Source: Halobaculum rubrum
Lineage (GTDB): Archaea; Halobacteriota; Halobacteria; Halobacteriales; Haloferacaceae
Assembly: GCF_019880225.1 (NCBI RefSeq)
Contig: NZ_CP082284.1
Location: 930,001 to 994,000 of the forward strand
Reading direction: 5' to 3'
DNA length: 64,000 bases
The notes below the pieces were generated by a model that saw only the letters and a list, made by a program, of their open reading frames with translations, was not told the DNA's origin and did not search any database. Numbering within the stretch: the first letter of the stretch is position 1; each line of letters opens with the position of its first letter. Positions 37,647-43,619 of this stretch are shown here, one piece after another. Both the position numbers and the translations under genes were made by a program.

Positions 37647-38000
37647 GTGAGCGAGGACCGGACCGCCGCCGACGTGCTCGACCTGCTCGGGGACGAGTAC
37701 GCCAGGTCTATCCTCGCGGCCGTGAGCACCGGCGCCAAGTCGGCCGCGGAACTCGGGGAACACTGCGACATGTCCGTCTCGACGGTGTACCGGCGGGCGG
37801 AGGCGCTCGTGGAGCGGGACCTCCTCGTCGAGCGGGTGCGCATCGACCCCGACGGCCATCACGAGTCGGTGTTCGAACCGGCCGTCGAGCGCCTGGCGGT
37901 GGAGGTACGGGACGGCTCGCTCGACGTCGACGTCGAGCAGCCGAACGAGGACGCGGTGGACCGGTTCACGCGCGTCTGGGAGGACATCAGGGAGAGCTAA
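37647..38000 (+). CDS. Winged-helix transcription regulator (ArsR/HTH_20-like)
   Basis: 117 residues. DLLGDEYARSILAAVSTGAKSAAELGEHCDMSVSTVYRRAEALVERDLL is a clear winged helix with recognition helix SVSTVYRRAEAL, followed by a beta wing (ERVRIDPDGHHESVF). Residues 80-117 are an acidic helix. This group often sits before small membrane proteins in haloarchaea, as here. No obvious metal site. GTG 37647; TAA overlaps the next ATG by one base. Confidence 0.87.
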   Translation: MSEDRTAADVLDLLGDEYARSILAAVSTGAKSAAELGEHCDMSVSTVYRRAEALVERDLLVERVRIDPDGHHESVFEPAVERLAVEVRDGSLDVDVEQPNEDAVDRFTRVWEDIRES

Positions 38001-38278: not shown

Positions 38279-38550
38279 CCGACGGCACGCACCTCGCCCT
38301 CAGTGTCGTCCGCGCCGTCGTCTTCCTCCTGGGCGTCGCGGTGACCGCGACCGCGACTCGCGCGTACCACCGGGTCGGCGAGCCGTATCTCCGCGACGCC
38401 GCCGTCGCGTTCGGCGTCGTCACCGTCGGCGTTCTCATCGAGGGCGTATTGTTCCAGTTCACGAGCCTCGATCTCACCGCCGTCCACCTCGTCGAGTCCG
38501 TCGCCATCGGCGTCGGCTTCCTCGTCCTCCTGCGGTCGCTGCGCGCGTAG
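38275..38550 (+). CDS. Small three-helix membrane protein (DUF7521-like), second copy
   Basis: 91 residues, paralogous to the preceding gene: TATATRAYHRVGEPYLRDAAVAFGVVTVGVLIEGVLFQF aligns with its central part. Three hydrophobic helices. GTG 38275 overlaps the previous stop by 4 nt. The pair could form a heteromer in the membrane. Confidence 0.75.
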   Translation: MTDGTHLALSVVRAVVFLLGVAVTATATRAYHRVGEPYLRDAAVAFGVVTVGVLIEGVLFQFTSLDLTAVHLVESVAIGVGFLVLLRSLRA

Positions 38551-38605
38551 TCCCCCTTTGGTGCGGCCGACGATCGTGCGAGCCACGGCCCGGCGCGTGT
38601 GACAG

Positions 38606-38615
38606 AACATTTAAC
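38606..38615 (+). promoter_or_regulatory. TATA candidate of pentapeptide-repeat channel gene
   Basis: ACATTTAACA lies 26-35 nt before GTG 38641 in GC-rich sequence, fitting a leaderless or very short leader transcript. Confidence 0.45.
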
Positions 38616-38640
38616 AAACCCGACACCGACACACGCGTGA

Positions 38641-41600
38641 GTGTCAGGGAGCTGTTCGTTCCGCATCGACCCGAACGGGGCGGTCGAAGCGGGAACCGAC
38701 GGCGGAGTCGACGCGGCGACCGACGACGCCGACGCTCGGAGCGTCGCTGGCGCGCCGGGCGTCGACGCCAGTGAGCACCCCGGCGTGACCGAGTCGTGGT
38801 CGTGCCCGCATGAGGCGCACCCGGACACGGAGCGGTGCGTCTTCCATATGGGCGGGGACGCCCGCGCGAAGCGCGGCGTGAGCGACGCCGACGTCGCCGA
38901 GGCGCTTCGGGAGGTGGCGGGGCGTCACGGCGCGGCCGACAAACGACTGCTCGGGGCGCGCCTCGGCGACGTGACGCTGGACAACGAGGTGCTCGACGCG
39001 CCGGACACGTCGCCGCTGGACCTACGCGGCGCGCGCGTTACGGGGACGCTCTCGCTGGTCGAGGCGGAGGTGTGCCAGCCGGTCGATCTGCGCGGGGCCA
39101 GGCTGTCGAGCGTCGATATGACCGACTCGACCATGCGGGGCGACTGGGACCTGTCCGGCGCCCGCGTCGACGACGAGTTCGTCCTCCGAGAGGCGACGTT
39201 CGAGGGCGACGTGGACCTCGTCGGGGCGGCGTTCGACGGCCGCGTCTCGGCCGAAGAGGCCCGATTCGTCGCCGACACGTGTCTGCGCGAGGCGACGTTC
39301 GCGGCGGCCGCGCGCTTCGACGGCGCGGAGTTCCGCGGCGACGCGAACCTGCTGGACGACGACGCGTGCTTCGAGCGGGCCACCTTCGAGGCCGAGGCGT
39401 GCTTCCGGAAGGCCCAGTTCCGCTACGCCGACTACGTCGACGCGGCGTTCGGCGGCGACGTCGACTTCGACGAGGCGACGTTCACTGGCGACGCGGAGTT
39501 CGCGGGCGCGACGTTCGACGCCGGCGCCTCCTTCCGCGGGGCGGAGTTCCACGGGGGGGCGAACGTGCTGGTCGAGGACGTGACGTTCGCCGACGCCGAG
39601 TTCGCAGACAGCGTGGCCTTCGAGCGCGCGGAGTTCGCCGACGCGACCTTCGCCGGGACCGACTTCGGCGACGATGCCGACTTCGACCACGCGCGCTTCG
39701 AGGGGAACGCGGACTTCGCCGGCGCCGTGTTCGACGCCGACGCGGAGTTCCCGGAGGCGCGGTTCGCTCTCGACGCCGACTTCTCTCGCGTCCGGGTCGC
39801 CGGCGCCGTCGAGTTCGCCGGCGCGGAGTTCCGCGGCGGCGACAACGTCCACGCGGACGACCTCAGCTTCGCCGACGCGACGTTCGAGGGGCACGCGGAC
39901 TTCGGCGACGCCGAGTTCCGGTACGCCGACTTCACCGGCGTCGAGACGGCGTCGATGGACATGGAGGGCGCCCGCTTCGCCCGCGACGCGGCGTTCGACG
40001 GCGCCGTCGTCGACGGGGCGTTCACCCTCGACGAGGCCCGCCTCGACGGCGACACCTCCTTCGCCGGCGCGACGTTCGGGGCGGCGGTGTCGATGCGGGG
40101 CGCGGAGTTCCGCGGCGACGACAACGTGCAGGACGACGACCTCACGCTCGCGGGTGCGACCGTCGAGGGCCCGCTCGACTGTTTCGCCGCCGTCTTCGGC
40201 GAGGCGACGTTCGACGGCCTCGCGGTCGCCGGGGACGCCGAGTTCGACGAGACGGAGTTTACCGAGACGGCGACGATGACGGGCGCAACGTTCGGCGCGG
40301 CGGTGCGATTCACGGAGGCACGCTTCCGCGACGACGCCGCCTTCGACGACCTGACCGTCGAGGGATCGGCGTCGTTCCGCGGGGCGGAGTTCCACGGCGG
40401 CGACAACGTCCGCGACGACGACGCCACGTTCGCCGGGGCCGACTTCGGCGACGACGCCGACTTCAGGCACGCGCGCTTCGAGCGCACCGAGTTCGACGGC
40501 GCCGTCGTCGCCGGCGACGCCTCCTTCGGGGAGGCCGCCTTCGACGACCAGGTCGTGTTCCGCGGCGTCGCCTTCGAGGGGGAGGCACGCTTCGACGAGG
40601 CCCGTTTCGACGGCGACGTGTCCTTCGGGACGGCGACGTTCGGAGGGGTCGCGGCCTTCCGCGGGGTGGAGTTCCACGGCGGCGACAACGTCCAGGACGA
40701 CGACGCCACGTTCGCCGGGGCGACCTTCGGCGACGAGACGACGTTCCGGGCCGCCGAGTTCACCTACGCCAACGTGACCGATGCGACGTTCGAGGGGCCG
40801 GCCACGTTCGAGGCGACGCGCTTCGATCGCGACGCCGACTTCGACGGGTCGGCGTTCCGCGACGACGCGACGTTCGCCGAGGCGCGCTTCGAGACGGACG
40901 CGAGTTTCGAGGGCGTCGCCTTCGACGGCGACGCCGTCTTCAGCGGCGTCGAGTTCGTCGGCGGCTACCACGAGACGGACGACGCCGCGTTCAACGACGC
41001 CGTCTTCGGGGGCGACGCCGCCTTCGACGAGGTGGAGTTCCGCGTCGCCGGGTTCGACGACGCCCGCTTCGAGGAGAGTGTGACCGTCGAGCGGAGCACC
41101 TTCGAGGCGGTACACGCCGAGGCCGCGACGTTCGAGGCGAGCCTGAACGCCGAGCGCGCCCGGTTCGGTCCCACGGCGTTCGGCGGCGCCGAGATCGTCG
41201 GCGACGCGCTGTTCATCGAGGCCGCGTTCGACGGGGACGCGACGTTCCGGAACGCGACGTTCGGCGCCTCGGCCGTGTTCTCGCGGGCGGTGTTCGACGA
41301 CCGGGCGGACTTCTCCAGCGTCCGGGTCGCCGACGAGGCGCACTTCGACGAGCTACACTTCCGCCGGGACACCACGTTCGCTGACGCCGAGTTCGGCGCG
41401 GAGGCGACCTTCCGGGCCGCCGAGTTCGAGGGCAGCGCCAACATGCACAACGACGACGCCAGCTTCCAGAGCGCCGTGTTCCACGGCCCGGCGAACTTCG
41501 ACAAGGCGACGTTCCTGTACGCGAACTTCGTCGGGACGACCCTCCACGACCGCGCGCGCTTCAGCGAGACGCGCTTCGAGGAGTCGGTGCGCTTCCGGCC

Positions 41601-42468
41601 GACCGCCGATCGCGGCGAGGTGCTCGTGGACCTCTCGGGGGCAGTCGTCCGCGGCGGCCGGTTGGGCCAGCCCGAGGGGGGGAGCGTCTTCTACGACCTG
41701 ACCGGGGCGCTCGTCGCCGCCGTCGACCTCGACGCGACCGACTGCGAACACGCGCTGTTCGACCACTTCCGGTTCTGCAACACCGACTTCGAGGGGTTCG
41801 ATTTCACCGCGCACAAGGACCACCTCGCGCGGAGCAACTGGGTGATCCACGAGTTCGCCGTCGGCGAGGGGACGCTCGACCCCGAGGAGGCGGCCATCGC
41901 CGGCCCCGCAACCCTCGAGAGCACGTACCTGAAGGCGAAGAACTGCGCGGCCGAGTTCGGCGACCGCAAGGCCGCCGCCGAGTTCTTCATCAAGGAGATG
42001 TACTACCGCCGCCGGAAGAACTGGCTCATCGCGCGCAACCGCGACGACATCGCGGACGGCGACGTCTCGCCGGTGAACCGTCTGAAGGCGCTGGGCAAGT
42101 GGACCGGCAACAACGTCCTCCACCAGACGTGTGGCTACGGGGAACGCCTCTGGCGCTCGGTGTACGTCTCCGTGGTCGTCATCGTCGTGTGGGGCCTGCT
42201 GTACTCGACGGTCACGCAGGGGACCCGCGGGTCCAGCGGGCTGACGACACAGGGACTCCGGAGCGTCCGGCAGGCCGTCTCCCCCGAGGGGCTGCTCGTC
42301 ATCGGCAAGAACATGTACTTCAGCATGGTGACGTTCACGACGCTCGGATACGGCGACATCCAACCGGTGGGCGCGACCGCGCGGACGCTCGCCGGCGTCG
42401 AGGCGTTCATCGGCGCCATGCTCGTCGCGCTCGTCGTGTTCGTGCTCGGCCGGCGCGTCGCCTGGTGA
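38641..42468 (+). CDS. Giant pentapeptide-repeat protein fused to a two-helix K+ channel
   Basis: 1275 residues. N-terminal Cys/His-rich stretch (SCSFRIDPN; then WSCPHEAHPDTERCVFH near 53-69) could bind zinc. From about residue 120 to 1080 the protein is built of pentapeptide-like repeats (A-T-F-x-x / x-x-D-F-x), expected to form a right-handed quadrilateral beta helix. A motif GAEFxGxxNVxxDD recurs; six copies (residues 300 to 769) are spaced 93-94 residues apart. A non-repeat helical linker (about 1080-1165) follows. The pore domain has TM1 near 1171-1190, a pore helix and filter TTLGYGD at 1233-1239, and TM2 near 1245-1270. TTLGYGD is the K+ selectivity signature of Ion_trans_2 channels. 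No RCK domain; the repeats may be the sensor. Confidence 0.9.
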   Translation: MSGSCSFRIDPNGAVEAGTDGGVDAATDDADARSVAGAPGVDASEHPGVTESWSCPHEAHPDTERCVFHMGGDARAKRGVSDADVAEALREVAGRHGAADKRLLGARLGDVTLDNEVLDAPDTSPLDLRGARVTGTLSLVEAEVCQPVDLRGARLSSVDMTDSTMRGDWDLSGARVDDEFVLREATFEGDVDLVGAAFDGRVSAEEARFVADTCLREATFAAAARFDGAEFRGDANLLDDDACFERATFEAEACFRKAQFRYADYVDAAFGGDVDFDEATFTGDAEFAGATFDAGASFRGAEFHGGANVLVEDVTFADAEFADSVAFERAEFADATFAGTDFGDDADFDHARFEGNADFAGAVFDADAEFPEARFALDADFSRVRVAGAVEFAGAEFRGGDNVHADDLSFADATFEGHADFGDAEFRYADFTGVETASMDMEGARFARDAAFDGAVVDGAFTLDEARLDGDTSFAGATFGAAVSMRGAEFRGDDNVQDDDLTLAGATVEGPLDCFAAVFGEATFDGLAVAGDAEFDETEFTETATMTGATFGAAVRFTEARFRDDAAFDDLTVEGSASFRGAEFHGGDNVRDDDATFAGADFGDDADFRHARFERTEFDGAVVAGDASFGEAAFDDQVVFRGVAFEGEARFDEARFDGDVSFGTATFGGVAAFRGVEFHGGDNVQDDDATFAGATFGDETTFRAAEFTYANVTDATFEGPATFEATRFDRDADFDGSAFRDDATFAEARFETDASFEGVAFDGDAVFSGVEFVGGYHETDDAAFNDAVFGGDAAFDEVEFRVAGFDDARFEESVTVERSTFEAVHAEAATFEASLNAERARFGPTAFGGAEIVGDALFIEAAFDGDATFRNATFGASAVFSRAVFDDRADFSSVRVADEAHFDELHFRRDTTFADAEFGAEATFRAAEFEGSANMHNDDASFQSAVFHGPANFDKATFLYANFVGTTLHDRARFSETRFEESVRFRPTADRGEVLVDLSGAVVRGGRLGQPEGGSVFYDLTGALVAAVDLDATDCEHALFDHFRFCNTDFEGFDFTAHKDHLARSNWVIHEFAVGEGTLDPEEAAIAGPATLESTYLKAKNCAAEFGDRKAAAEFFIKEMYYRRRKNWLIARNRDDIADGDVSPVNRLKALGKWTGNNVLHQTCGYGERLWRSVYVSVVVIVVWGLLYSTVTQGTRGSSGLTTQGLRSVRQAVSPEGLLVIGKNMYFSMVTFTTLGYGDIQPVGATARTLAGVEAFIGAMLVALVVFVLGRRVAW

Positions 42469-42480
42469 GCGGCCGCGGAC

Positions 42481-42487
42481 CTATATC
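42481..42487 (+). promoter_or_regulatory. TATA box of molybdopterin oxidoreductase gene
   Basis: CTATATC is centred about 26 nt before GTG 42510, the position expected of a leaderless promoter. Confidence 0.55.
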
Positions 42488-42509
42488 TCCCTGGCCCGTC
42501 GGATCCCCC

Positions 42510-43619
42510 GTGTCGAAGCGATCCGGCCGCGCCGCCCTCGCCCGCGCGCTCCGCCGCCTCGAGCCGCCGCCCCGCGTCGTCGACTGGGCCATCGCGGTCG
42601 CCGTCGCCGTCGAGGTCGCCTCCGGCCTCTACTCGTTCACCCGCGGGACGCCGAGCGGCGCGTGGGTGTTCTGGCTCCACTCGACGGTCGGACTGACGCT
42701 CGCGGGGCTCGTGGGGTTCAAGCTCTACCGCGTCCGGCGGCGCGTCACGTCGACGGCGGCGTGGGACCGCTTCACCCCGCTGTCGGTACTCCAGGCGGTC
42801 GTCACGCTCGCGGCCCTGGGAACGGGCGTCTTCTGGGTGCTCGGGGGCAACGTCCCGGTCCTGGCGTGGACCACCCTCAACCTCCACGTCGGCCTCGGCC
42901 TCCTGCTGGTTCCGCTGGTGCTGTGGCACCTCCGCGGACGATTTCACTCCCCGCGCGACGTGGACCTCGACCGCCGTGCCGCACTCCGCACGGGCGCGCT
43001 GCTCGTCGCCGGCACCGTCGTGTGGCGAGCGACCGAGACGGCCGACCGCGCCCTCGGCGGGGCGACGCGGCGCTTCACCGGGTCGAAGCCGACGGGCGAC
43101 CTGTACGACACGGAGACGGAGGGCGGCGGCTTCCCCGTCACCTCGTGGGTCGCCGACGATCCCGACCCGGTCGACCGGGACGACTGGACGCTCTCGGTTC
43201 GCGGGCTGGTCGAGGAGGAGCTGGCTCTACCATACGACGAGGTCGCCGGGAACGGTCCCACGCGCGAGGTCGAGGCGACGCTCGACTGTACTTCCGGGTG
43301 GTACACCCACCAGACCTGGGGGGGCGTCCGCGTCGGCGATCTCCTCGATTCGGCGGGCGCGAGCGACGACGCGCGCTACGTCCGGTTCACCTCGGTGACC
43401 GGCTACCGCTGGTCGCTTCCCATCGAGGAGGCGCACGACGCCCTGCTCGCGACGCACGTCCGCGGCGACCCGCTCTCGCACGGCCACGGCGCCCCCGTCC
43501 GACTCGTCGCCCCGGGCCGCCGGGGATTCCAGTGGGTGAAGTGGGTCGAGTCGATGGAGGTGCGGAAACGCGGCGACCCGATGCAGTGGCTCGTGACGCT
43601 GATCTCGGGATTCGAGTAG
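42510..43619 (+). CDS. Membrane-anchored molybdopterin oxidoreductase (sulfite oxidase-like)
   Basis: 369 residues in two parts. Residues 20-150 hold about four hydrophobic helices with His in WLHSTVGLTL, LNLHVGLGLL and LWHLRGRFH, a cytochrome b561-like heme-binding layout. Residues 200-365 match the sulfite-oxidase Moco domain: WTLSVRGLVEEELALPYDEV, then EATLDCTSGWYTHQTWGGVRVGDLL with the Moco-ligand Cys in LDCTSGW, and GAPVRLVAPGRRGFQWVKWVESMEV. This resembles a fused YedY/YedZ-type pair (MsrP/MsrQ) with the order reversed. It would pass electrons between the membrane and an external substrate; the substrate is unknown. GTG start is set by the TATA box. Confidence 0.82.
   Translation: MSKRSGRAALARALRRLEPPPRVVDWAIAVAVAVEVASGLYSFTRGTPSGAWVFWLHSTVGLTLAGLVGFKLYRVRRRVTSTAAWDRFTPLSVLQAVVTLAALGTGVFWVLGGNVPVLAWTTLNLHVGLGLLLVPLVLWHLRGRFHSPRDVDLDRRAALRTGALLVAGTVVWRATETADRALGGATRRFTGSKPTGDLYDTETEGGGFPVTSWVADDPDPVDRDDWTLSVRGLVEEELALPYDEVAGNGPTREVEATLDCTSGWYTHQTWGGVRVGDLLDSAGASDDARYVRFTSVTGYRWSLPIEEAHDALLATHVRGDPLSHGHGAPVRLVAPGRRGFQWVKWVESMEVRKRGDPMQWLVTLISGFE

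Follow-up and report, generated by a model that had tools for sequence, protein, structure and literature searches.

The window analysed here is a stretch of 64,000 nucleotides from Halobaculum rubrum, in which positions 38641-42468 of the forward strand form a single uninterrupted open reading frame of 1275 codons with a GTG start. The features of the locus are as follows, in window coordinates; residue numbers refer to the encoded 1275-aa protein.

38641..42468, + strand: whole gene (1275 aa), comprising a zinc-knuckle-like motif, a pentapeptide-type beta-helix, a TPR-like linker, and a two-transmembrane-helix (2TM) K+-type pore
38653..38847, + strand: N-terminal Cys/His (zinc-knuckle-like) motif, residues 5-69 (C5, C55, C66, H69)
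39013..41814, + strand: pentapeptide-type right-handed beta-helix, about residues 125-1058, about 40 coils of about 22 residues
39325..41472, + strand: 94-residue super-repeat with acidic loops, EFxG(G/D)xNxxxDD
41902..42036, + strand: TPR-like helical linker, residues 1088-1132 (TYLKAKNCAAEFGDRKAAAEFFIKEMYYRRRKN)
42070..42132, + strand: predicted interfacial (slide-helix-like) helix, residues 1144-1164 (AF2), followed by CGYGERLWR
42148..42213, + strand: TM1, residues 1170-1191 (hydropathy, AF2)
42283..42357, + strand: pore helix and TTLGYGD selectivity filter, residues 1215-1239 (PF07885, E = 8.8e-12)
42373..42462, + strand: TM2, residues 1245-1274, at which the chain stops with no C-terminal domain
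38549..42527, no strand: segment in place of which two sister genomes have only about 85-94 bp at the syntenic loci (L222 and L223; blastn)

In the 1275-aa frame, Pfam identifies Pentapeptide_3 (PF13576) in 12 stretches (315.6 bits; cut-off, 27) and Ion_trans_2 (PF07885) at residues 1224-1273 (45.2 bits; cut-off, 22.5), the only other matches being two more pentapeptide models. Thus, the claim of the sequence-only reading that the repeats and the pore lie in the same open frame holds, with both domains above their cut-offs, and no sequencing error or internal stop separates them. An assembly or frameshift artefact is ruled out by orthologues that have the same module order, the nearest of which also share the start. 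The GTG start is backed by the aligned N termini of orthologues (MxxxCxFRxDP). The G+C content of the gene (0.715) is close to that of the window (0.707), and its third-position G+C likewise matches the surroundings. All 17 pentapeptide matches of this genome fall in this frame, and the two other Ion_trans_2 frames of the genome read as ordinary RCK-type channels. The fusion is real and old.

The repeats, put at about 950 residues from the sequence alone, indeed span about residues 125-1058. Self-identity of the rod peaks at shifts of 94, 11, 5, 72, and 22, with no peak at 20, which indicates a coil of about 22 residues built from 5 + 6 spacings. The earlier periodicity is thereby refined: the dominant spacings are 11 and 22 rather than 20, and a 94-residue super-repeat exists besides. 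Self-identity at shift 94 is 0.249 (mean, 0.108; standard deviation, 0.027), and the 94-residue unit corresponds to four coils plus six residues. Eight acidic loops follow residues 231, 303, 397, 490, 584, 678, 772, and 929, at spacings of 72, 94, 93, 94, 94, 94, and 157. AF2 models the rod as a beta-helix, with pLDDT dips at the acidic loops. Two models were made, both of monomers: the first has a mean pLDDT of 90.0 and a low-confidence break near residues 814-853, which is absent from the second, made for residues 815-1275 with a deeper alignment (mean pLDDT, 92.6; pTM, 0.87). The length of the rod is estimated at about 200 Å. The attachment of a large beta-helix to a K+-type pore, as proposed from the sequence, agrees with the domain hits, the conservation, and the confident AF2 models, whereas the cytoplasmic side assigned to the beta-helix is a likely placement deduced from topology.

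The same pentapeptide-type beta-helix occurs in MfpA, Qnr, AlbG, and designed pentapeptide solenoids; the fold matches include MfpA, AlbG, and QnrB1, and the rod is strongly negative (22% D+E, 7% K+R). The rod might then act as in MfpA or Qnr, i.e., as a DNA mimic that binds a topoisomerase or a similar enzyme at the membrane. However, such fold matches are general to pentapeptide proteins, and haloarchaeal proteins are acidic in general. Moreover, the window rod is several times longer than those proteins and differs from them by its 22-residue spacing with 5/6 alternation, its loop-bearing super-repeat, and its fusion to a channel. We regard a DNA-mimic role as very improbable.

The Cys/His cluster reported ahead of the repeats is present as C5, C55, C66, and H69. 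When the first 330 residues are scanned, 75 of 99 haloarchaeal and 38 of 58 bacterial members of the family contain a pattern of this kind, C-x5-20-C-x-[FWY]-H, compared with 0.4% of shuffled sequences; because the members share ancestry and their start codons are uncurated, these counts express conservation only. The nearest members have an N terminus of the same kind (CxF...W.CPxxA....RCxFH), which in three of them begins at residue 5, as in the window protein, and thus supports the start codon. The motif presumably binds a metal. In three relatives (L039, L040, and L041), a HEAT-repeat-like region ahead of the beta-helix and channel takes the place of the Cys/His motif (Pfam on L039).

The sequence-only reading stated that the channel has no RCK, CNBD, or other known gating domain. 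Pfam finds none either, but that statement overlooks a conserved TPR-like linker and an interfacial helix between the rod and the pore. The linker motif TYLKAKN...GD..AAAEFFIKEM.YRR, the predicted interfacial helix after it, and CGYGERLWR recur in bacterial members, and the Y, E, and R columns of the linker are near-invariant among 26 bacterial and archaeal sequences. The linker is helical in AF2, and its profile gives weak matches to designed TPR proteins. CGYGE and the R that follows it are conserved among relatives, and most columns that are invariant among 11 long members belong to the linker, CGYGERLWR, or TM2. Linker and interfacial helix could couple the rod to the pore.

The filter TTLGYGD lies exactly at residues 1233-1239, as first read, between TM1 (about residues 1170-1191) and TM2 (about 1245-1274). 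By profile comparison, the pore matches those of KirBac and other K+ channels, with which the window protein shares the TxGYGD filter and the 2TM pore, together with a predicted interfacial helix before TM1. Unlike KirBac-type channels, it has no C-terminal cytoplasmic domain, its regulatory region being N-terminal only, and the C-terminal RCK/TrkA_N domain of MthK-type channels is missing as well (no Pfam match; the chain stops at TM2). Relatives hardly differ in the number of residues that follow the filter (about 35-36), and no domain follows TM2 in the long relatives or in those short bacterial members that were read. To judge from its filter, the window protein would conduct K+.

In the family at large, the filter is less constant. 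The 81 haloarchaeal members fetched around the matches of a C-terminal search in 194 haloarchaeal genomes comprise 45 with GxGD, 16 without the Asp (GYGN, GYGG, AYGQ, etc.), and 20 with neither. When the filter columns are left out of a FastTree tree, in which local supports are moderate, the three filter states require at least nine changes. Twelve filter-less members, which keep TM2, cluster as one group, most of them with an SFxSFxxFLLG-like pore loop; a haloarchaeal group with a different pore loop, mostly of this type (L146, L150, L151, L158, L162, L164, L181, L188-L190, and L193), retains the linker and both membrane helices. The K+ signature is thus less widely conserved than the linker and the membrane helices. 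Tandem pairs of long pentapeptide-channel genes exist in two genomes (L037:7747-16306 and L038:5380-14108), one copy having TTLGYGD and the other FITLEYV. Both pairs enclose a UPF0114 (PF03350) membrane-protein gene.

The tandem pairs and the SFxSFxxFLLG-like group suggest an explanation in which the pore of this family serves mainly as an assembly module, with some members acting as nonconducting or regulatory subunits in heteromers. For the window protein this is hardly probable: it keeps the canonical filter, its clade is mostly of the K type, and it lacks a second copy as a partner, the pentapeptide matches of the genome being confined to one frame.

Our searches place the window protein among the long members of a family that is widespread in bacteria and archaea and apparently unstudied. 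With its last 281 residues as the query, matches were found in 115 of 194 haloarchaeal genomes. The nearest members (1,153-1,230 aa; two of their genomes are Halorubrum) are 69-72% identical over these residues, and orthologues of 1,150-1,400 aa keep rod, linker, and pore. In a contig scan of 84,980 species, whose search pattern includes the filter and is thus uninformative on filter variation, Halorubrum, Halolamina, and Halorarius yielded long members; the members from Pseudomonas, Vibrio, Alteromonas, Colwellia, Endozoicomonas, Planctomycetota, Omnitrophota, and others are short (about 270-470 aa). The suggested search for other proteins with pentapeptide repeats and Ion_trans_2 therefore yielded many, e.g., a Vibrio member of only 325 residues with both domains (Pentapeptide, E 4.3e-7; Ion_trans_2, E 1.3e-12). 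In public and plasmid records, proteins of this kind go by the name “pentapeptide repeat-containing” or “potassium channel family protein.” The annotated proteins, from haloarchaea and bacteria, have the same module order and linker motif and are mostly 270-950 aa long, compared with about 1,150-1,400 aa in the subgroup of the window protein. A literature search on pentapeptide repeats with K+ or ion channels retrieved nothing relevant, and the word “channel” is absent from a 2021 review. The design, called distinctive in the sequence-only reading, is not so in its module order, which is common in haloarchaea, is found in many bacteria, and has a likely fold relative of solved structure (HalA; see below), but the length and the 94-residue super-repeat do mark the long subgroup. 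What is new here is the linker with its interfacial helix, the super-repeat, the lack of a domain beyond TM2, the empty site in sister genomes, and the repeated loss or replacement of the filter.

Chain length in the family ranges from less than 300 to 1,400 aa, and nearly all of this variation precedes the linker, so that a spacer fits as well as a specific sensor. The rod could accordingly be just a scaffold or spacer, holding a pore that is permanently open or under lipid control close to some other structure. This anchored leak channel agrees with the conservation of linker and pore alongside such variable length and with the HEAT-repeat scaffold ahead of the rod in one subgroup. However, the conservation of linker and CGYGE from bacteria to archaea exceeds the needs of a passive tether, and the Cys/His motif at the N terminus has also been retained. 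We consider an anchored leak unlikely, although it is the strongest of the competing explanations.

The gene is sporadic in its distribution, its close group being present in 15 of 292 haloarchaeal genomes. In the window, its neighbours are an HTH gene, two DUF7521-like genes, and a Mo-oxidoreductase gene. In two sister genomes, the HTH and DUF7521-like genes adjoin the Mo-oxidoreductase gene, which reveals a single-gene gain here or a loss there and makes the channel gene accessory. An operon with the DUF7521/HTH or Mo-oxidoreductase genes is ruled out by the same contiguity. Given this empty site, the neighbours are uninformative on the function of the channel; none of the flanking window genes was matched at the orthologue loci. 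The small HTH protein (window 37647-38000) gives weak PADLOC matches to Csa3/CARF models, which probably reflect a generic winged helix.

Relatives borne on plasmids occur in haloarchaea. IMG/VR contained no confirmed relative that would indicate a viral origin, and the C-terminal part was not found in phage records; when the Vibrio member was compared with phage records by tblastn, only its pentapeptide part was covered. A viral BFVD entry, A0A514AAT2, gives a strong fold match to the C-terminal model (E 1.4e-5, 348 columns) and is possibly a virus-encoded relative.

A Foldseek search of the PDB with residues 815-1275 gave a sole match below E 1e-3, namely, the Hailong anti-phage effector channel HalA with oligodeoxyadenylate (9nyi; E 5.7e-5, probability 1.00), with 387 aligned columns including gaps and a target of 333 residues. 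Kv1.2 follows at 1.4e-2, and pure K+ channels lie at about 1e-2 with about 200 columns. The first, longer model ranks HalA second. Because linker and pore amount to about 190 residues, the 387-column alignment very probably includes part of the modelled rod. HalA is described in PMC13275509 as an ion channel that is blocked by poly-dA and controlled by ligand binding, and PMC12657230 describes de-suppression of the effector by phage exonuclease activity. Going by the models, the window protein may resemble HalA in being controlled from a nonpore domain.

A closer likeness would make the protein an immune effector in which a nucleic-acid or nucleotide signal at the N-terminal domain shuts or opens the channel, virus attack releasing it so that the cell is depolarised. 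The 9nyi match, the sporadic distribution, and the empty site agree with such a role. However, the TM-scores are only moderate (0.32/0.41; rmsd, 10.7 Å over several domains), and HalA is not among the matches listed for the four family profiles A1, A4, A5, and A6 (best 60 in three of them). A motif scan revealed no nucleotidyltransferase in the flanking frames of relatives, no HalB-like (NTase) gene was found beside the channel gene in the window, the genome has no SMODS match, and the channel has no PADLOC match, in a library that predates Hailong. The window protein is about four times longer than HalA, and its acidic rod is poor for DNA binding, although acidity is usual in haloarchaea. Identity with HalA is thus unsupported by sequence, neighbours, and charge, and we judge a HalA-like effector to be quite improbable, somewhat more so than an anchored leak.

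On balance, the window protein is probably the pore subunit of a 2TM K+ channel, itself probably tetrameric, with its regulatory region solely before the pore. Nothing follows TM2, which leaves modulation to the N-terminal side or to membrane partners; together with the conserved linker and CGYGE, it points to control through TM1. The AF2 model (pLDDT 92.6) places linker and interfacial helix before TM1, in agreement with a gated channel, and HalA, the best fold match, is itself a channel under ligand control. Four chains would form a tetramer with cytoplasmic rods, each capped by a zinc-knuckle-like module; the rods, including their loops every 94 residues, would offer a binding surface for a partner or ligand; and binding would be relayed through the TPR-like linker and the interfacial helix to TM1, altering opening in one direction or the other. 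Counting against a gated K+ channel, the absence of GxGD in 36 of the 81 haloarchaeal members means that K+ conduction is not conserved throughout the family. The osmotic control of K+ envisaged in the sequence-only reading would be a tentative role for a gene that is accessory and many of whose relatives no longer have the filter.

Many well-known ligand-gated prokaryotic K+ channels have their control domain after the inner helix; here, all but the pore precedes the outer helix. The design is real but common to a large family, in which the apparently HalA-like fold and the filter losses are what surprises most. We tentatively suggest, as a possibility that is still doubtful, an unrecognised bacterial and archaeal class of N-terminally gated channels, fold-related to DNA-gated HalA, in which an N-terminal signal gates through TM1 and the K+ filter was repeatedly lost or replaced in haloarchaea. 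If this is true, the family would allow testing of gating via TM1 and of whether a 200-Å beta-helix senses or holds; natural filter swaps and a fold like that of a nucleic-acid-gated immune channel make it a test case.

Two further gene neighbourhoods were observed among relatives. In two genera, the long channel gene is immediately followed at its 3' end by a PsiE-family (PF06146) membrane-protein gene on the other strand (L056:5549-6022 and L057:5541-6056). A neighbour that, from its sequence, resembles a membrane-fused spermidine synthase is conserved in the subfamily of 700-820 aa (L042, L049, L051-L053, L134-L136, L138, and L140-L144); because polyamines block inward-rectifier K+ channels, a functional link between the two is conceivable.
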